The position numbers were made by a program, and so were the translations under genes. 12,160 bases of DNA from Oscillospiraceae bacterium (GTDB taxonomy: Bacteria; Bacillota; Clostridia; Oscillospirales; Ruminococcaceae). The notes under the pieces are model-generated. The model did no database searches, had not been told where the DNA came from, and worked only from the letters and a program-made list of their open reading frames with translations. Location of the stretch: assembly GCA_009784765.1 (NCBI GenBank), contig WQXP01000015.1:1-12160 (forward strand), read 5' to 3'. Below are positions 290 through 10,426 of this stretch, piece after piece (the first letter of the stretch is position 1; each line of letters begins with the position of its first letter).

Positions 290-318
290 TTGACAAATTT
301 GCAAAAATGTGATACAAT
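290..318 (+). promoter_or_regulatory. Sigma-A promoter for pyrG
   Basis: TTGACA (290-295), a 17-bp spacer and TACAAT (313-318) with an upstream TG (extended -10). Transcription would start near 325, leaving a leader of about 30 nt with AGGAG at 341-345 and the ATG at 355. The leader is too short for the pyrG attenuation (reiterative-transcription) arrangement known in Bacillus, and no run of G is seen at the likely start site. Confidence 0.88.
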
Positions 319-354: not shown

Positions 355-1719
355 ATGGCAAAATACATTTTCGTAACGGGCGGAGTGGTATCGGGGCTCG
401 GCAAGGGAATAACGGCGGCATCTCTTGGGCGGCTTCTCAAGCAGAGGGGGCTGAAAGTCCTCGCGCAGAAGTTAGACCCGTACATGAACATAGACCCGGG
501 GAACATGAACCCTCTCCAACACGGTGAGGTTTTCGTGACCGACGACGGCACGGAAACAGACCTTGACTTAGGGCACTATGAGCGTTTCATGGACGAGAAT
601 CTGTCGCGCTTGTGCAGTTTAACTTCGGGGAAAGTCTACTCGCAGGTTCTCGAGAACGAGAGGGGCGGGAAGTATCGCGGCGCGACGGTGCAAGTGATTC
701 CTCACGTAACAAGCGTGATTAAAGACTTCATAATCGCGGGCTCAAAAGATGTAGACGCGCTGATTGTCGAAATCGGCGGCACAGTCGGGGATATTGAGAG
801 CCAGCCGTTCTTAGAGGCAATCAGGCAAATTTCGATTGAAGAGCGGGAGAACTGCCTGCTCATACACGTAACCCTTGTGCCGTATCTCAAGGCATCGGGA
901 GAGCATAAGTCAAAGCCCACACAGCACTCAGTCAAAGAACTGCGAATGCTCGGGCTTACCCCTGATATTATAGTAACCCGCGCAGATGAGGCGATTAGCG
1001 GTGGGATTAAAGACAAAATCGCGCTGTTTTGCAATGTAAAGCCCGATTGCGTAGTCGAGAATATGTCAATTGAGTCGTTATACGAAGTTCCTCTCATGCT
1101 TCATGATAACGGGCTTGACCGCGTTGTCTGCCGCGAACTGAAATTAGACACCCCTGAACCCGATTTAACCGAGTGGTGCAGCATGGTGAGCAAAATCAAG
1201 AACCGCAGAAACGTGGTGAAAATCGCGATTGTCGGCAAATACACCAAGTTCAAAGACGCATATCTGTCAATCCTCGAAGCACTCACCCATGCGGGAATAG
1301 AAATCGGCGTGAATATTGACCCGCGCTGGTGCCGCGACGGAGATTTTGAGGATTTCGCAGAAGCAGAACTCGAAAACTTAGATGCAATCGTGGCAGTAGG
1401 CGCGGGGGAAAACGTGCGGGCGTTCGCTCGTGAGAAAGCTATACCCTTGCTTGGTCTTCCTGCGGGTGAGTCGGGGAAAGATAATATCGGCTCACGGAGA
1501 TACACTCTTGAGGAGGGGTCGTTGCTTCATAAACTATACGGCGAGACGGAAATCGCTGAACGCTGCCGCTGTAAACCGCATGAAATCATCGCTTTGCCTG
1601 CAAGCGAGCATCGCTTCTACGCAGAAGTGCCTTTTAATCCCGAGTTTAAGAGCCGCCCTAACCGCGCACACCCGCTGTTTTTGGGGCTGATTCGGGAAGC
1701 CGCGAAAAAGTTTCAATAA
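355..1719 (+). CDS. pyrG: CTP synthase with a degenerate, probably inactive glutaminase domain
   Basis: CTP synthase aminates UTP to CTP using ATP, the last step of pyrimidine nucleotide synthesis, in the cytoplasm. The N-terminal synthetase domain (about residues 1-265) is well kept: the P-loop region GGVVSGLGKGI (9-19), QHGEVFVTDDG (55-65), DLDLGHYERF with D71, VEIGGTVGDIES with E139, and the UTP-binding region GEHKSKPTQHSVKEL. The C-terminal class I glutaminase domain (about 287-450) is recognisable by VGKYTKFKDAYLS and the C-terminal PEFKSRPNRAHPLF. It is about 80 residues short, and the whole protein is 454 residues against the usual 530-545. The nucleophile segment GICLGMQ is replaced by LGLPAGES (366-373), the oxyanion-hole segment GGFG by VGAG, and FHPEF by FNPEF (N428 for His). 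Frame and C-terminus are intact, so this is not a recent frameshift. It probably uses free ammonia. AGGAG lies 9 nt before the start. Confidence 0.93.
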   Translation: MAKYIFVTGGVVSGLGKGITAASLGRLLKQRGLKVLAQKLDPYMNIDPGNMNPLQHGEVFVTDDGTETDLDLGHYERFMDENLSRLCSLTSGKVYSQVLENERGGKYRGATVQVIPHVTSVIKDFIIAGSKDVDALIVEIGGTVGDIESQPFLEAIRQISIEERENCLLIHVTLVPYLKASGEHKSKPTQHSVKELRMLGLTPDIIVTRADEAISGGIKDKIALFCNVKPDCVVENMSIESLYEVPLMLHDNGLDRVVCRELKLDTPEPDLTEWCSMVSKIKNRRNVVKIAIVGKYTKFKDAYLSILEALTHAGIEIGVNIDPRWCRDGDFEDFAEAELENLDAIVAVGAGENVRAFAREKAIPLLGLPAGESGKDNIGSRRYTLEEGSLLHKLYGETEIAERCRCKPHEIIALPASEHRFYAEVPFNPEFKSRPNRAHPLFLGLIREAAKKFQ

Positions 1720-1870: not shown

Positions 1871-4800
1871 ATGAAAAAAACCGCTTCTCTGGCACTGGCT
1901 TTTTCGATGCTCGTCGGCATGATTACAATGTCCGGGCTGTCAAGAACAGGCGCACCTACATTTGTCGCAGATGTTGCGGCGAACTCGGCGTTCATAATCA
2001 CCAACCCTTATGAAGACGTAAACTGGACGACTACCGGTCGCTACAGAGCGGGGCTTCACAACCATACCACCAACTCTGACGGAAACCACAGCCTCAGCAC
2101 TATGGCAGAAGAGCATTACAGGGCGGGCTATCACATAGTTTCGTTCACCGACCACAGCCGACAGGCACCGTGGCCCGACAAAGTGCCGACAGGCGCGATG
2201 ACAGCGGCGCGGACTGCAGAGATGGCGGCGGGTTCGGGGCGTTCAGGGGCGGCGGGAATGATTTTCGTGCCATATACTAACGAGCGTTCTGTCACCTTTG
2301 ACTGTACCGGCGGCTCAGCGTGCGGGGCGAACTGCGCTTGTACTCCTTACGGAATACGGCAGCCTACTCGTAACATAGAGGCGGACGGACGCCCGCGCAG
2401 ACATCATGTGAATACTTACTGGGCGGCAAGCAGAGTGAGTACTATATCCTTTCAAGATATGCTCCACGAAATGCGGACGCTTGAACGCCCGACAGACCGT
2501 GTTCCTAACCCTGCTGTAAAAGCAGAGGGAACGGGAATAGCGCACCTGAACCACCTCGGGCGTTTCACAGGCGCAGAAATGAACAGAACCCTTGCTCAGG
2601 CTAACGCGATTTCGAACGACCCTGCTTTTTATCGCCCCTATGCACGGCTTCTTCGTGAAAATCCGAATCTTATCGGTATGGAAATTGTCGGTAAGTTTGA
2701 CCCGGAAACCCAAGGCGATCGCGTAATCTGGGATAATATCCTTAAAGAGAATATGCAGCACGGCGTTCCCGTGTGGGGATTTGCCTCTGATGACGCGCAT
2801 CATCAGCGGGCGATTGGCTTTGCGTATAACATCATGCTTATGCCCGAATTGACACTGTGTGAGTTCAGGAACTCTATGCAGTCGGGGGCTTTTCTTGCAT
2901 TCTCGCGGGTTGACCGCCAGTACGGGATTTTCCCCGGGGCAATCGGGCAAGCGATGTGGGTAGGAAATGAGCTTAATACAGAGAATATGACGGCAGTCCG
3001 CAATCGCGCTACACCCGAAATCGAAAGCATTACTGTTGCAGGAGATACTATATTCATAGTCGCGAGCGGACATGATACAATCCGCTGGTATTCTGACGGA
3101 ACACTGCCTGTTGCTACAGGCGCGACCCTTACGCTCCCTGCGAATTTCACGGGAACTTACGTCCGCGCCACAGTGGCGAGCAATTCTAACGGCGTACTGT
3201 ACACACAGCCTTTCGGAGTTCGCCCTGCGGCGACTGTTTGCAGGCTCCCTGTATTAGAGAGCATAATGGAACTCCCCCCCGTTACTGCGTCAATCGGTGC
3301 AGCAGCGACTGTGCAGGGCTTAGGGCTTCCTGCGGCAGTGAATGTCCGCGCAACTACTACAACAAGCCGTACCAACGCGATTCACCCCGCCCCTATTCGC
3401 TGGAACTTAAACGGAATTGCATACAATCCTGCTATTACCGACGTTGACCAAACTTTTACTGTTACAGGAGTCGTCCGACCGACGAAAATGACAGTTCCTG
3501 CAGGAACAGACCTCGGCATTTCTGTTCAGGTAACGGTTGAGGCTTATGTCTGCCACGAATGCAGTGAACAAACGTGGGCGTTAGATTTCTCGCGGCTGAC
3601 TACGGCAGGAGCGGGCGGTGATGCCAATTTACCCGCTGAGTTTGAGGGTTCGCCGAATATGCGTTCTCTCGGAAGCACGTCCTACCGCCCGGGGGTTCGC
3701 CGGGAATCGGGTGCGAACAATCCGCTGATTATGGTAGGTTCTGCTCCCTTCTCTTCCTTTAAGTGGGCGAATTTGCATACAAGCCGTGTCGGGCTTAACA
3801 TCGAAACAGGTTCTGCTACGGGAATCGGCGGAACGAACTCTTCCCGTCCGAGTTCCACGACAGACCCTCAGGCGTTTAATCCGCGGGTGGGCGAAACCTA
3901 CGAACTTCGAATGACTGCGACAGGTACGGGAACGCTTATCATTCACGGCGCGAGGGCGGGCGACCACAGCAAACACCCGCAACAAACGGTAACGCTGTCT
4001 GAACAGCCGCAAGAATTCACGCATATTTGGGCGCAAAACTCCGGCGGCGGGAACGTGTTCATGGAACTGAGCCCTGCTGCTTCAATCGAGGTTACTGCCA
4101 TGAGCGTACACCGCCTCAACACTTGCGGCGGCGGCAGTTGCGGAAGTGCAGGAAAATGCTGCCCCGACTATCCCGAATGCGAATGCGGAATCTGCGACAA
4201 ATGCGATAAACGCCCCTGCGAATGTATAGTAACACCTACTTGTTGTGAGCTGTTCCCCGATTGTAACTGCGTCGCCCCGCCCTGTGAGCTTTGCGGCGAA
4301 CTCTGCGGAACTAAGCCTTGCTGCAATATTGCGGCGTGCCGTGAGTGCGAATGCGGTGAAGACACCTGCTGCAACGATTTCCCTGATTGCAATTGCAACG
4401 GTACAAATCCTGTACCCTGTTCCTTTTGCACAAACCCGATTATTCCGGGTGCTGTCTGTCCTTGTCGGACTACTCCTGTGCCTTGCCCTGATTGCGCGGC
4501 TCATCCTTGTTCTTGTCCGCCGCCGCCGTGTCCGGGGGGGTGCGGGGAAATAATCGTGCTGTGTACTTGCGAAGTTCCGCCGATATGCGAAACTTGCGGG
4601 AACACATTAGCGACTTGCTCTTGCCCGAAACCTTGTGTTTTCTGCCGAATAATCGGCTGTACGGGAACTTGTCAAGCTCCTCAACCATGTGTGCATTGCA
4701 GTGTCGCGGGCTGTACCGGTACGTGTCAGAATCAGCAACCCTGTGTTCATTGTCAAAACGTCGGTTGTGCGGGAACGTGCCAAAATCAGCAACAGCCCTG

Positions 4801-5635
4801 CATTCATTGCCAAAACCTCGGCTGTTCCGGAACTTGTGTAATCGTTCAAGTATGCCCGCAGTGCAGTTTCCCCGAAGACGACTGTGTCTGTGCGTGCTGT
4901 GAGCTGTTCCCCGAGTGTACCTGTGCTGAGCCGCGTCCGCCGCAAACGATTTATTCGATGTGGGGGGTTTTGAATGATGAGATTTTAGAACAGCTCCTCG
5001 AAAGCGACAGACCGCGAAACATCAACTTAGGAACACGGGGGAACAACAGAGTTGTAACAATTTACCCCCACCCTGAGACGCAAACCCTTGATGATGCGCG
5101 TGTAATCACTGATTTGTGTATCAATATCGCGACTGTTACTCGCCCCGCAAATACACCCGCGAACAGCGTCATGATTAACCCTGCTGACCTCGGCGGAGCT
5201 TTCGGGTTTGAGCTTGGGTTCATTGTAACTGAGGCAGAACTCAAAGCTGCGGGGCTGGCTGCACAAGATGTGAAAGTTTTCCGCGTTACAAGCACCGGCG
5301 CAATCGTTGAAGAGGGCAGAATCCTTGCAAGGAACGACAACGGCTCTGTTGTGGTGGGAATCACCTGTTCGTCGAATTATATCCTCACGACAGTCCGTCC
5401 CGGGCTTCTTACCGGCGGCGACGGCCCTCCGGGAATTAACGACGCACTCGCGATTTTGCGCAGTATTATCGGGCTTCCCAACGTGATGAACAATAACAAA
5501 ATCGCCTTCGATGCGGCGAATATCACCCGGCCCGGTACAGTGATTGCCGCGCCGATAATCGACGACGGGCTTGCAGTTCTGCGTTTTATCATCGGGCTTG
5601 ATTCTCCGTTAGATGCTTATTGGAAAGCAGGGTAG
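1871..5635 (+). CDS. Secreted PHP-domain protein with Ig-like domains, Cys-rich region and dockerin-like C-terminus
   Basis: This is a 1254-residue exported protein. The N-terminus MKKTASLALAFSMLVGM is a signal peptide (two Lys, then a hydrophobic core). Residues about 58-320 form a PHP-type metal-dependent phosphoesterase domain: LHNHTTNSDG (H63, H65, D70), SFTDH (D94, H95), NERS (E138), AHLNHL (H225, H228) and SDDAH (D308, H310). Residues about 380-455 and 460-558 look like beta-sandwich domains; the second resembles the group 4 bacterial Ig-like domain. Residues about 566-750 resemble a jelly-roll, carbohydrate-binding-type module. Residues 751-1019 hold about 66 cysteines. Residues 1026-1175 form a further domain of a kind often found before dockerins. 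The C-terminus has two dockerin-like half repeats, each ending in DALAILRSIIGL or DGLAVLRFIIGL, but without a classical calcium loop. The substrate cannot be read from sequence; a phosphodiester or phosphoester at the cell surface is a reasonable guess. The arsC-like gene follows after 7 bp. Confidence 0.85.
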   Translation: MKKTASLALAFSMLVGMITMSGLSRTGAPTFVADVAANSAFIITNPYEDVNWTTTGRYRAGLHNHTTNSDGNHSLSTMAEEHYRAGYHIVSFTDHSRQAPWPDKVPTGAMTAARTAEMAAGSGRSGAAGMIFVPYTNERSVTFDCTGGSACGANCACTPYGIRQPTRNIEADGRPRRHHVNTYWAASRVSTISFQDMLHEMRTLERPTDRVPNPAVKAEGTGIAHLNHLGRFTGAEMNRTLAQANAISNDPAFYRPYARLLRENPNLIGMEIVGKFDPETQGDRVIWDNILKENMQHGVPVWGFASDDAHHQRAIGFAYNIMLMPELTLCEFRNSMQSGAFLAFSRVDRQYGIFPGAIGQAMWVGNELNTENMTAVRNRATPEIESITVAGDTIFIVASGHDTIRWYSDGTLPVATGATLTLPANFTGTYVRATVASNSNGVLYTQPFGVRPAATVCRLPVLESIMELPPVTASIGAAATVQGLGLPAAVNVRATTTTSRTNAIHPAPIRWNLNGIAYNPAITDVDQTFTVTGVVRPTKMTVPAGTDLGISVQVTVEAYVCHECSEQTWALDFSRLTTAGAGGDANLPAEFEGSPNMRSLGSTSYRPGVRRESGANNPLIMVGSAPFSSFKWANLHTSRVGLNIETGSATGIGGTNSSRPSSTTDPQAFNPRVGETYELRMTATGTGTLIIHGARAGDHSKHPQQTVTLSEQPQEFTHIWAQNSGGGNVFMELSPAASIEVTAMSVHRLNTCGGGSCGSAGKCCPDYPECECGICDKCDKRPCECIVTPTCCELFPDCNCVAPPCELCGELCGTKPCCNIAACRECECGEDTCCNDFPDCNCNGTNPVPCSFCTNPIIPGAVCPCRTTPVPCPDCAAHPCSCPPPPCPGGCGEIIVLCTCEVPPICETCGNTLATCSCPKPCVFCRIIGCTGTCQAPQPCVHCSVAGCTGTCQNQQPCVHCQNVGCAGTCQNQQQPCIHCQNLGCSGTCVIVQVCPQCSFPEDDCVCACCELFPECTCAEPRPPQTIYSMWGVLNDEILEQLLESDRPRNINLGTRGNNRVVTIYPHPETQTLDDARVITDLCINIATVTRPANTPANSVMINPADLGGAFGFELGFIVTEAELKAAGLAAQDVKVFRVTSTGAIVEEGRILARNDNGSVVVGITCSSNYILTTVRPGLLTGGDGPPGINDALAILRSIIGLPNVMNNNKIAFDAANITRPGTVIAAPIIDDGLAVLRFIIGLDSPLDAYWKAG
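4631..4837 (+). repeat. Four tandem 18-19-residue Cys repeats in the PHP protein
   Basis: Residues 921-989 consist of four copies of P-C-x-x-C-x4-C-x-G-T-C followed by a Gln/Asn-rich spacer, for example PCVHCQNVGCAGTCQ. Unit lengths are 18, 18 and 19 residues, and the last unit is incomplete. They form the end of a larger Cys-rich region (about 4121-4927) that also holds four scattered copies of CC-x-x-[FY]-P-[DE]-C-x-C starting at residues 763, 791, 833 and 1009. The DNA copies are diverged, so the repeats are maintained at protein level. Confidence 0.85.
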
Positions 5636-6042: not shown

Positions 6043-6071
6043 ATTATACCATACAATACACCGATTGTCAA
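6043..6071 (-). promoter_or_regulatory. Consensus promoter facing the antisense strand of arsC/PHP
   Basis: On the minus strand TTGACA (6066-6071) is followed by a 17-bp spacer and TATAAT (6043-6048) with TG one base before it. This is as good a match as the other housekeeping promoters here. Its -35 box overlaps the stop codon of the LRR gene. Transcription would start near 6036 and run at once into the hairpin at 5999-6022, then antisense to the arsC-like gene. No credible gene follows on that strand. Confidence 0.6.
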
Positions 6072-7477
6072 TGCTCTTTCACGCCGTGAACTTCGTCAAA
6101 AACTGCGACGTTGTCAAGTGTGGGGTCATCTGCAGTCGGAGAGTCAGGTACAAGGGGCGATTGATTGTGATTACGTTCGCGGGGCTGCTGGGAACTCGGG
6201 CGGGCGAAAGCATCGGGGAATTTTTCCTCAATTGCACTCCTCTGAGAACGCGAAATGCGATTTCCTTCAAGCCACAGCACCGTGAGTGCAGGCAAAGAGT
6301 CGATTACGTCAGTGCTGCGGAGGCGGTTTTCGCTCAACAGCAACATTTCAAGATTCGGGTGGTTAGCCAGCGGTGTGAGGTCGCTAATCATGTTATTGGT
6401 CAGCGACAGCCCTTTGAGGTTCGCGAGGGGTTCAACGAAAGCGATGTCACTAACGCGATTGCCGTTGAGGCTCAAAGAAGTCAACGCGGTAAGCCCGCCG
6501 ACGGGAGTGAAATCCTCGATGCGGTTATCATCTAACCACAGACCGGTCAATTTGCTCATATTCGCTAAAGCAGAAACGTCTGCGATTTTGTTGTCGTTAA
6601 GCCAAAGCTGTTCTAAGTTGGTGAGAGAGCTCAGCGGTGTAATATCCGAAATGAGGTTGTTGTTGAGATAAAGCACTGCTACATTCGCAGGGATTTCGCC
6701 GCTATGCACCATGCGTGCTAATTCTCTGTCAGTAATGTCGCGGTCGGTAAGGGATATTCGCACAGGGCGAGGTGCAGGAGCGGGCGTAGTCGCTGCTGTG
6801 GTTTTGCTTGTGCTCGGTGCTGTCGGAGCAGTAGTGGGGGCAGTCGTGGAAACAGTTGTCGGCGACGTTGCAGGAGTAGTCGCCGGCCCGCTGTTCGCTG
6901 TAGGCGGCGGTTCGGGAGTAGTAACCGGTAAATCAACACCGCTTGTGTTGCTTTCGGAGGGTTCACCGCTCGGGTCTTGATTAGGAACGCCCGGAAAGTC
7001 AAGAGGCATTTCAAGTACAGGGGGTTCGAGGGGAATCCCGCCTTGAGGGGCGCGAATTGTCTGCGATGTCCTTGAGCGAGCAGTAGTCGCGGCGGGAGCA
7101 GTCGGCAGTTGTACCGGTGCATCATCAGAATTGTCGGGGGTGGTGATTGCAGGGGGTTCGGTCAAACTCTGCGAACCGGAATCATCTTGAGAAACTAAAG
7201 GAGCTTCTGTTATGAACTCATCTTGAGTTTCGTCGGGCTCAAGTACATCAATGAGGAAAAAGCCCTGAGATGACAGGAATGCGATTATTCCGATTACCGC
7301 GCAAGCCGCGAGGGAAAAAGCATAAGACGAACGCACCCGTGTAGTTCTTACTTTTTTGAACACGGGGTGTTGAGTGTATGTTTCCTCTGCTATGGCGCGG
7401 TTAATACGCTCAAGCGTGCGTTTGCGCACCTGAGTTTCAACCGTTATATTATCTAAAAAAGTGTTGTATTTTTCCAT
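6068..7477 (-). CDS. Single-pass membrane protein with extracellular leucine-rich repeats, putative anti-sigma factor
   Basis: This 469-residue protein has a short charged N-terminus (1-50), one transmembrane helix (about 51-70, SYAFSLAACAVIGIIAFLSS), a long linker rich in Pro, Thr and Ser (about 80-240), and an LRR domain. The LRR units are exactly 22 residues long, starting at 269, 291, 313, 335, 357, 379 and 401, with the pattern LxLxxNxIxDIxPLxxLxxL as in internalin-type repeats. A polar tail (420-469) ends the protein. The start lies 3 bp after the stop of the ECF sigma gene with GGAGT in front, so the two are co-transcribed and probably translationally coupled. By position it should be the membrane partner that holds the sigma factor, with the LRR part as outside sensor. 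No zinc-type anti-sigma motif (HxxxCxxC) is present in the N-terminus, so this role is inferred from context and topology. Confidence 0.85.
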   Translation of the reverse strand: MEKYNTFLDNITVETQVRKRTLERINRAIAEETYTQHPVFKKVRTTRVRSSYAFSLAACAVIGIIAFLSSQGFFLIDVLEPDETQDEFITEAPLVSQDDSGSQSLTEPPAITTPDNSDDAPVQLPTAPAATTARSRTSQTIRAPQGGIPLEPPVLEMPLDFPGVPNQDPSGEPSESNTSGVDLPVTTPEPPPTANSGPATTPATSPTTVSTTAPTTAPTAPSTSKTTAATTPAPAPRPVRISLTDRDITDRELARMVHSGEIPANVAVLYLNNNLISDITPLSSLTNLEQLWLNDNKIADVSALANMSKLTGLWLDDNRIEDFTPVGGLTALTSLSLNGNRVSDIAFVEPLANLKGLSLTNNMISDLTPLANHPNLEMLLLSENRLRSTDVIDSLPALTVLWLEGNRISRSQRSAIEEKFPDAFARPSSQQPRERNHNQSPLVPDSPTADDPTLDNVAVFDEVHGVKEH

Positions 7478-7480
7478 GGT

Positions 7481-8107
7481 TTACTCCGCTTCCGTAATCA
7501 AATCCTTCAGTTTTTTGCGTGCGCGGGCTAAGTGGCTTCGCACGGTGGATTCGTTTTGCTTGGTTATATCCGCGATTTCTTTTGTCGAATACCCCTCATA
7601 ATAAAATAAGTAGACAGCGGCCCTGTGCTTGGGGTCGAGTGCGTTTATGCTCTCGGTTAATCGCTTGCTTTCGTTATCGTGAGGATTGACTGAATAAGTT
7701 TCGACAATGTCTTCGAGAGGGACAGTTTTCTTGCGCTTATATCCCCTTATAATCGAATTGCATTGATTGACTGTAACGCGAGTTACCCACGCCGCCTCAT
7801 GTTCATCAGAGGCAAATTGAACAGGAGTCGATTTCCGGCTCTCAAGAATGATTTTCAAAAAGACCTCTTGCATAGCGTCTTCCGCGTCAGCTTTGTTAGC
7901 CATAATCGCCATAGCAGTCCTGAAGACTTGGCGTTCATGCTTGCAAACGAACGCTTCGATTTCTGCCGTCGTGCTGTACGCGCGGGCTTCAGAAACAGCC
8001 GACACATCTGCAGGCGGATTTGCCGCAAGGGTGTTAGGCTTATACGTGCCGCTTCGCGTAAGGTCGAGTGTGTTGCTGAGCGGGTACGCACTTGATGAAT
8101 TGTACAT
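7481..8107 (-). CDS. ECF-type RNA polymerase sigma factor
   Basis: This 208-residue sigma-70 family protein directs RNA polymerase to stress- or signal-dependent promoters. Region 2 spans about 52-118 (HERQVFRTAMAIMANKADAEDAMQEVFLKI is split by the family's typical DAEDAxQEVF). Region 4 spans about 148-204, with the helix-turn-helix in GYSTKEIADITKQNESTVRS. Regions 1.1 and 3 are absent, as in ECF factors. The first 45 residues are an unusual polar extension, yet the start at 8107 is supported by GGAGGGAG at 8112-8119 on the minus strand. A SigW-like promoter lies directly upstream, suggesting that it activates its own gene. The next gene encodes the likely membrane regulator. Confidence 0.92.
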   Translation of the reverse strand: MYNSSSAYPLSNTLDLTRSGTYKPNTLAANPPADVSAVSEARAYSTTAEIEAFVCKHERQVFRTAMAIMANKADAEDAMQEVFLKIILESRKSTPVQFASDEHEAAWVTRVTVNQCNSIIRGYKRKKTVPLEDIVETYSVNPHDNESKRLTESINALDPKHRAAVYLFYYEGYSTKEIADITKQNESTVRSHLARARKKLKDLITEAE

Positions 8108-9734: not shown

Positions 9735-9950
9735 ATGAACAGTAGAGAACTCCATTTCACAGTGTTTTGTATCGAAAACGTGGCCGAACGTCTTAACAAG
9801 AGCGGTGCAGAAGTCTATGCGCTACTGAAAGTGAACAGCACCATACTTGATGATTATATCGTTCCTAATTACGATACCCTTCACACTCAGGGAAAAGAGT
9901 ATATCGTAGATGACATAATCGAATTTATGCAAGAAAAGAGGTTAGCCTAA
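9735..9950 (+). CDS. DUF3791-type small protein, likely partner of the DUF3990 protein
   Basis: The 71-residue protein begins MNSRELHFTVFCIENVAERL and ends with YDTLHTQGKEYIVDDIIEF, the LHTxGxxYIVDDI signature of DUF3791. It is small and helical with no membrane segment. AAGGAGG lies 7 nt before the ATG. Its stop overlaps the next start (TAATG), so the two proteins are made together. In related genomes such genes sit beside DUF3990 genes and are viewed as its partner, perhaps an antitoxin; this is context-based. Confidence 0.85.
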   Translation: MNSRELHFTVFCIENVAERLNKSGAEVYALLKVNSTILDDYIVPNYDTLHTQGKEYIVDDIIEFMQEKRLA

Positions 9951-10426
9951 TGACACTTTATCACGGTTCGTATTTAGCTGTTGAAATGCCGAATATTTCC
10001 TATTCTCGTGAAAAAGTCGATTTCGGGAAAGGCTTTTATACCACTCAGATTAAAGAACAGGCAGTAAGGTGGTCGGCACGATTCAAGCGAAAAAAGGGGC
10101 AATGTGTCGTGTCGTTATATGAAATCGACAAATCTGAATTACTAAATAATTCTAAAATTTTGTCGTTTGAGACATACAGTGATGAATGGCTTGATTTCAT
10201 TCTTGATTGCAGGCGTGGGAATGATACAAGCGATTATGATGTGGTAATTGGTGGAGTAGCTAACGATAAAGTTTTTGATACCATTGAGCTTTTCTTTGAG
10301 AAGCTGATTGACAGAGCAGAAGCGATAGAGCGATTGCGGTATGAATCACCGAACCTGCAATACTGTTTTAGAAGCCAAGACATTATTGACCGCTACTTAA
10401 AATTCGTTTCAAGTGAGGAGGTTTGA
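9950..10426 (+). CDS. DUF3990 protein, ADP-ribosyltransferase-like, possible toxin
   Basis: This 158-residue protein begins MTLYHGSYLAVE. LYHGS (H5) and DFGKGFYTT (Y30) match the first two motifs of the His-Tyr-Glu class of ADP-ribosyltransferases. The conserved segments YDVVIGGVAND (96-106) and LQYCFRSQ (136-143) are typical of DUF3990; the residue serving as the third catalytic position is not certain. It would transfer ADP-ribose from NAD to an unknown target. It overlaps the DUF3791 gene by one base and is followed after 4 bp by a third small gene. Lower GC than the surroundings suggests horizontal transfer. Confidence 0.83.
   Translation: MTLYHGSYLAVEMPNISYSREKVDFGKGFYTTQIKEQAVRWSARFKRKKGQCVVSLYEIDKSELLNNSKILSFETYSDEWLDFILDCRRGNDTSDYDVVIGGVANDKVFDTIELFFEKLIDRAEAIERLRYESPNLQYCFRSQDIIDRYLKFVSSEEV

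Follow-up and report, generated by a model that had tools for sequence, protein, structure and literature searches.

The window, as the whole 12,160-nt stretch analysed here is called, comes from a metagenome-assembled genome (MAG) of an Oscillospiraceae bacterium, designated G000, which is 61% complete and in 219 contigs. It carries a pyrG gene, encoding CTP synthase, with AGGAG immediately 5' of the ATG and a promoter-like site further upstream (Table 1). This promoter call is a consensus match only; positions 180-1900 contain nine such sites, compared to a mean of 1.6 after shuffling. Other genes include one for a cysteine-rich protein of 1254 aa in which a signal-like start, a PHP-like motif at the N terminus, and dockerin-like repeats at the C terminus were noted by eye (but no Pfam match at E 0.01); a sigma-70-family (ECF-like) factor gene followed by one for a protein with, by eye, leucine-rich repeats and a membrane-like segment; and a DUF3791 and DUF3990 gene pair within a stretch of low G+C content (about 0.39).

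Table 1. Positions of pyrG, its domains and altered motifs, and neighboring features in the window; residue numbers of substitutions and deletions are those of E. coli PyrG.
Feature	Position	Strand	Details and basis
Promoter-like site	290..318	+	TTGACA-17-TACAAT, TG ahead of second hexamer; 11/12 consensus match
pyrG (CTP synthase)	355..1719	+	454 aa; single open frame, no internal stops
Synthetase (amidoligase) domain	355..1152	+	Residues 1-266; PF06418, E. coli alignment
L4 loop of synthetase domain	658..681	+	R105 to G, D107 to K, L109 to R; E. coli alignment
Remnant of class I glutaminase (GAT) domain	1213..1716	+	Starts at PyrG residue 287, first of the glutaminase half; Pfam, alignment, structure model
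Eroded oxyanion strand and lid L11	1393..1425	+	AVGAGENVRAF replacing PGGFG...; alignment
Motif AVGAGEN	1393..1413	+	Window letters
Nucleophile elbow	1450..1479	+	LGLPAGESGK; Cys379 to Pro, residues 382-424 deleted; alignment
Motif LGLPAGES	1450..1473	+	Window letters
VPFNPEFKSRP	1627..1659	+	His515 to Asn, Glu517 present; alignment
Motif FNPEF	1633..1647	+	Window letters
1254-aa cysteine-rich protein	1871..5635	+	
Sigma-70-family factor and leucine-rich-repeat protein genes	6068..8107	-	
DUF3791 and DUF3990 gene pair	9735..10426	+	

The PyrG protein belongs to the CTP synthase family. It scores 397.5 bits with CTP_synth_N (PF06418, cut-off 26.1) and passes the NCBIfam CTP synthase models (565.7 vs. 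308 and 526.8 vs. 462.75 bits). In a phmmer search of PDB, E. coli CTP synthase is matched by residues 3-371 and, more weakly and in a segment apart, by residues 410-453. By alignment to E. coli K-12 PyrG, the reference for residue numbering, all nine of what we take to be the ATP, UTP, and metal site residues are kept (K18, K40, D72, E140, K187, K189, Q192, R211, and K223), as are three of three tunnel-gate residues (P54, H57, and V60); a preliminary description of this DNA had already considered the active-site segments of the synthetase half complete. The latter three form the gate of the ammonia tunnel of CTP synthase (PMC9138612). CTP synthases can also form filaments, in which the GAT domain has a role (PMC9138612), and the protein could conceivably have given up making CTP to serve as a regulator or filament scaffold. 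With the nine site residues in place, and the synthetase domain the more strongly conserved part in related forms with a damaged glutaminase (below), this is most improbable.

The other half of the protein does not qualify as a glutamine-hydrolysing class I amidotransferase: the catalytic triad reads Pro, Asn, Glu (C379 to P, H515 to N, E517 kept), and matches to GATase (PF00117) fall below the 22.8-bit cut-off for both the whole protein (12.1) and its C-terminal part (14.9). The oxyanion and lid region has G352 changed to A and R356 to N, and F353 and residues 357-363 (lid L11), 382-424, and 473-498 are deleted. At 454 aa, the protein is 74 residues shorter than the intact PyrG of its nearest relative (L031, 528 aa) and 91 shorter than that of E. 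coli (545 aa). The preliminary description had noted the missing Cys and His, the altered oxyanion segment, a shortfall of about 80 residues, and an intact reading frame, and the alignments and frame bear it out on all of these. Three in-frame deletions together with several catalytic substitutions are unlike the usual sequencing or assembly error, and the same kind of loss is found in other assemblies, so that even for a metagenome assembly in 219 contigs a chimera or sequencing error is hardly conceivable.

A structure model (60 input sequences, window PyrG first), proposed earlier as a check on the missing block, gave a confident fold, with a mean pLDDT of 86.8 and a pTM of 0.87. Its best PDB match by Foldseek is E. 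coli CTP synthase (query TM 0.92; 531 alignment columns, gaps included). By ten-residue blocks, pLDDT in the glutaminase remnant is 80-97 except at 331-340 (69), 371-380 (62), and 401-420 (75 and 71); the L2 stretch of the synthetase domain (41-60) is at 59-60. The model thus suggests that an inactive glutaminase domain has been retained as a fold.

Loss of GTP activation is plausible, judging from the deletion of most of lid L11 and the replacement of D107 by K and L109 by R. The roles of lid L11 and the L4 loop are described in PMC9138612, which links the L4 residues D107 and L109 of E. coli to GTP and to NH3 coupling. According to the same source, exogenous NH3 can be used directly by CTP synthase, its supposed point of entry lying close to the GTP cleft, with GTP acting as a bung (PMC9138612). 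As the nucleophile loop and the greater part of lid L11 are gone, the window PyrG would be expected to admit ammonia and to be unresponsive to glutamine. Very probably, then, it is an ammonia-dependent CTP synthase, representing one of several independent glutaminase losses in gut Oscillospiraceae. Its synthetase domain would phosphorylate UTP with ATP and then aminate it with free NH3 from solution; the former glutaminase domain would hydrolyse no glutamine and persist as a folded structural remnant, GTP activation probably having gone along with the glutaminase function.

It could instead be a decaying copy, with a normal second pyrG in the part of the genome missing from the MAG. Neither protein nor PF06418 searches found a second pyrG in G000, but at 61% completeness this is a weak test. 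Two PyrG matches are found in five of 71 same-genus genomes (G010, G011, G056, G064, and G065), and in three of these (G065, G010, and G064) triad residues are missing from the second copy. Decay is nonetheless unlikely: the window pyrG has an intact frame, start region, and promoter-like site, and keeps its site and gate residues; the closest relative (G067, 98% complete) has one PyrG; and five genomes at 94-98% completeness (G053, G023, G027, G020, and G021) have a single PyrG match (E <= 1e-60) with a triad residue lost. In two further genomes, G119 and G465, a shortened PyrG is the sole one found with PF06418. The check for a second full-length pyrG that had been suggested for this DNA therefore came out clean for these two, and weakly so for G000. 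Fifteen of the 71 genus genomes have no PyrG match; the seven of these retested with PF06418 (G022, G028, G034, G046, G066, G040, and G017) yielded no CTP synthase, and six of the seven are 90-99% complete.

The searches returned 110 loci; apart from that of the window, uncut frames were of at least 521 aa except for L036, at 477 aa (the frames of L008, L012, and L046 are cut by contig ends). In an order-wide search of 394 genomes, 232 had a match at E <= 1e-60, and among the matches listed the smallest non-window frame was 514 aa. No close relative of the window's own shortened form was found. Purifying selection can therefore be shown in related forms only. L036 is from MAG Emb289P1bin98 (G119), and a search of 98 relatives of this genome found a form 93% identical to it, in G465. 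Both read LGIGVG at the nucleophile position (Cys to Gly), with His515 kept and Glu517 changed to Gln. Between them, dN/dS (NG86) is 0.036 for residues 1-266 and 0.095 for residues 291-478; both domains are under purifying selection. In a 157-row tree built on the synthetase domain, the window PyrG groups with the intact L031 and L003 (SH-aLRT 99), and L036/L140 with L141 (SH-aLRT 94), a sequence cut before Glu517 but with no loss in the part read. A common origin for the two shortened forms was considered and rejected: each joins intact-as-read relatives on starred branches, forcing at least two changes.

A triad residue has been lost in 12 of 57 PyrG loci read, referred to as dead below. Besides the window, L036, and L140, these are five full-length proteins with Cys379 to Ser (G053, G023, G027, G012, and G020); three with His515 to Arg and Cys kept (in G021 as the sole copy, in G010 and G064 as a second one); and a second copy in G065 that is also shortened (483-aa frame), with Cys to Gly and His to Arg. 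The remaining 45 have a canonical triad as far as readable, with four cut at the 3' end; the PyrG of G457 is intact-looking, with its 3' end cut. On a 64-row PyrG tree six changes are required to explain the dead state, and starred branches force at least five. None of 500 label shuffles was as low as six, which indicates clustering only, and because G045 is intact inside the Cys-to-Ser group, one of the six may reflect a regained triad or a loss in parallel. For five dead pairs (not all independent), dN/dS is 0.07-0.125 in the glutaminase domain and 0.018-0.041 in the synthetase domain; for eight intact pairs, the values are 0.015-0.112 and 0.007-0.034. Dead glutaminase domains are therefore somewhat more relaxed, yet constrained.

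Other amidotransferases show similar losses. A PF00117 search of six genomes showed that CarA of G000, with GVGLGHQ and VQFYPFG, has lost Cys (to Gly), His (to Tyr), and Glu alike; a CarB-like frame (by eye) follows it. Dead CarA is also found in G003, G119, and G465, while CarA is intact in G067 and present as one dead and one intact copy in G457. E. coli genomes searched with the carA stretch of G000 gave no match. Within the genus, 64 of 71 genomes have a CarA match, and of the 62 read, 15 have dead or truncated CarA only and 47 have an intact one. Several dead forms probably share an ancestor, for example a Cys-to-Arg group in G028, G040, and G069. In G044 and G046, the sole CarA match is the N-terminal domain (147 and 141 codons of open frame), and carB begins downstream of it; the 1.5-kb stretches read at these loci contain no convincing glutaminase match. 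This N-domain-only CarA ahead of carB, with a PyrF-like frame upstream (by eye), is found as the sole form in G044 (L254) and G046 (L257) and as a second copy in G006 (L255) and G065 (L256).

GMP synthase (PF00958) is matched in 59 of the 71 genus genomes. Seventeen of the 58 assigned have GuaA without a glutaminase domain only, and a long form is present in 41; the two kinds occur together in ten genus genomes. The glutaminase-less frames (L263-L266, L268, L269, and others) are of 313-345 aa, plus a 434-aa form with an eroded stub in G003 (L269). Short GuaA occurs beyond the genus too, in G465 and G457, in the latter together with the front of an intact GuaA at a contig end; G000, G022, G010, and G119 have no PF00958 match. 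At three loci (G056:C4, G065:C39, and G064:C46) guaA adjoins a window-like pyrG, and in G056 and G065 the contig includes carA as well. Both G065 and G056 additionally have a short GuaA, accompanied in G065 by a dead PyrG and an N-domain-only CarA and in G056 by a dead CarA; the guaA-pyrG loci are perhaps a re-acquired glutamine-dependent set.

Split amidotransferases exist, GMP synthase of archaea being an example, and glutamine might likewise still be used by the shortened PyrG if a separate glutaminase subunit acted on it in trans. However, the dead CarA and a single TrpG/PabA-like protein account for all other PF00117 matches (E <= 0.001) in G119 and G465, and a Pfam scan of ten other window proteins found no class I glutaminase, G000 itself being 61% complete. 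Such an arrangement is very unlikely. The residues lost, the second case under purifying selection, the six changes on the tree, and the CarA and GuaA losses together support the original suggestion that glutamine hydrolysis has been lost from PyrG and the synthetase kept.

Class II enzymes were surveyed by a PF13522 search of nine genomes, with enzyme names and start codons assigned by eye. AsnB starts with MYGI (Cys2 to Tyr) in G000 and G067, vs. MCGI in G022 and G028; the AsnB-like proteins of G119 and G465 (two each) and G003 are also without a Cys right after the start. The PurF Cys is kept in six of seven genomes read (G000, G067, G119, G465, G046, and G053); in the seventh, G022, a PurF-like protein (L319, G022:C56) starts MGGFFG, its nucleophile Cys seemingly lost. 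No PurF was seen by this search in G003 or G028. GlmS is intact in G022 and G028, and TrpG/PabA-like proteins with the Cys, His, and Glu motifs kept are found in G119, G465, G457, and G067. Since PurF, GlmS, and the TrpG/PabA-like proteins still appear glutamine-dependent, the glutaminase loss is selective.

Within the genus, the losses are associated. Status sets for CarA, PyrG, and GuaA were compiled by hand, and the tests ignore shared descent. All 13 genomes with dead-only CarA have short-only GuaA, vs. three of 39 with intact CarA (Fisher 9e-10). Dead and intact PyrG number 6 and 2 with dead-only CarA, and 1 and 37 with intact CarA (Fisher 2e-5); counting absent PyrG as dead, these become 13 and 2, and 6 and 37 (7e-7). 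Restricted to genomes with a completeness of 90% or more, short-only and long GuaA number 9 and 0 with dead-only CarA and 1 and 26 with intact CarA, and dead and intact PyrG 4 and 1, and 1 and 28. Left out of the 71 were seven genomes for PyrG, with partial or broken matches (G031, G039, G047, G055, G057, G059, and G068); nine for CarA (G016 and G037, matched but unread, and seven without a match); and 13 for GuaA (12 without a match, and G051, cut). PyrG was scored intact when any one copy was, and the 42 intact calls include G006, G065, and G042, cut before the complete triad could be read; the CarA of G004, with HPD, was scored intact; and several long GuaA were judged on frame length alone, that of G013 being cut at its start. 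The coupling is imperfect: G003 and G044 have dead CarA but an intact PyrG triad, and G020 intact CarA but dead PyrG; G004, G020, and G052 have short-only GuaA despite intact CarA; and G004, G007, G034, G043, and G063 have intact CarA but no PyrG match. In the closest relative, G067, PyrG, CarA, and GuaA are intact, yet AsnB has Cys2 to Tyr.

It is reasonably likely that gut Oscillospiraceae lineages have repeatedly dropped glutamine as a nitrogen donor, with CarA, PyrG, GuaA, and AsnB losing their glutaminases together, whether through point changes, shortening, or removal of the entire domain, and running on ammonia, and the PurF Cys mostly kept. The glutaminase modules of these four enzymes tend to decay together, and free ammonia would be fed directly into pyrimidine, GMP, and asparagine synthesis; a high ammonia supply may be the cause. 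The ammonia-rich gut habitat first proposed for this enzyme fits what is known of its relatives. L031, the nearest relative of the window PyrG, is from isolate Nt197P1bin1, and in such isolate codes Nt stands for the termite Neocapritermes taracua and Emb for Embiratermes neotenicus (PMC7886697). The L031 and L036 genomes are thus from termite guts, and from such relatives a gut origin may be presumed for the window as well. Termite guts are rich in ammonia, given as 68.7-899.6 umol per g dry weight, unrelated to feeding guild (PMC4675541).

Among known enzymes, the window PyrG is most directly compared to that of E. coli (EC 6.3.4.2): the synthetase domains are 58% identical over 264 aligned positions and the fold is the same, but the window protein has neither the catalytic Cys nor the His, has lost the stretch following the nucleophile together with most of lid L11, and is 91 residues shorter. 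Vertebrate carbamoyl phosphate synthetase I is ammonia-dependent, with a glutaminase domain inactivated by a Cys-to-Ser change. It resembles the window PyrG in being an amidotransferase with an inactive class I glutaminase domain, if the ammonia use predicted for the latter is correct, and the same Cys-to-Ser change is found in PyrG of G053, G023, G027, G012, and G020. It is, however, a different enzyme; in the window PyrG the domain is shortened as well, and the losses extend to several enzymes of a single organism. Laboratory E. coli mutants in PyrG C379 and CarA C269 keep ammonia-dependent synthesis and lose glutamine hydrolysis; these are engineered single changes, unlike the natural losses in the window. 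Asparagine synthetase A differs in being an unrelated enzyme type, rather than a type B enzyme that lost its glutaminase. It is described as strictly ammonia-dependent, beside the glutamine-using type B (PMC3854871). NadE likewise has ammonia-using and glutamine-using forms inside one family, with free ammonia the direct donor in vivo for single-domain NadE; this form, however, is thought to be ancestral, while the window PyrG has lost a glutaminase (PMC3376133).

Most ATP-dependent amidotransferases are considered to use glutamine in living cells, and the same 2012 study counts NAD synthetase as just the second enzyme known to take up ammonia directly, glutamine synthetase being the first (PMC3376133). 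No published glutaminase-less CTP synthase was recognised in the titles and abstract openings of the open-licence PMC papers that searches for one listed. Natural CTP, carbamoyl phosphate, and GMP synthases without a glutaminase would test what purpose GTP control, the ammonia tunnel, and the glutaminase domain itself serve, and the repeated joint loss may mark bacteria living on high ammonia.
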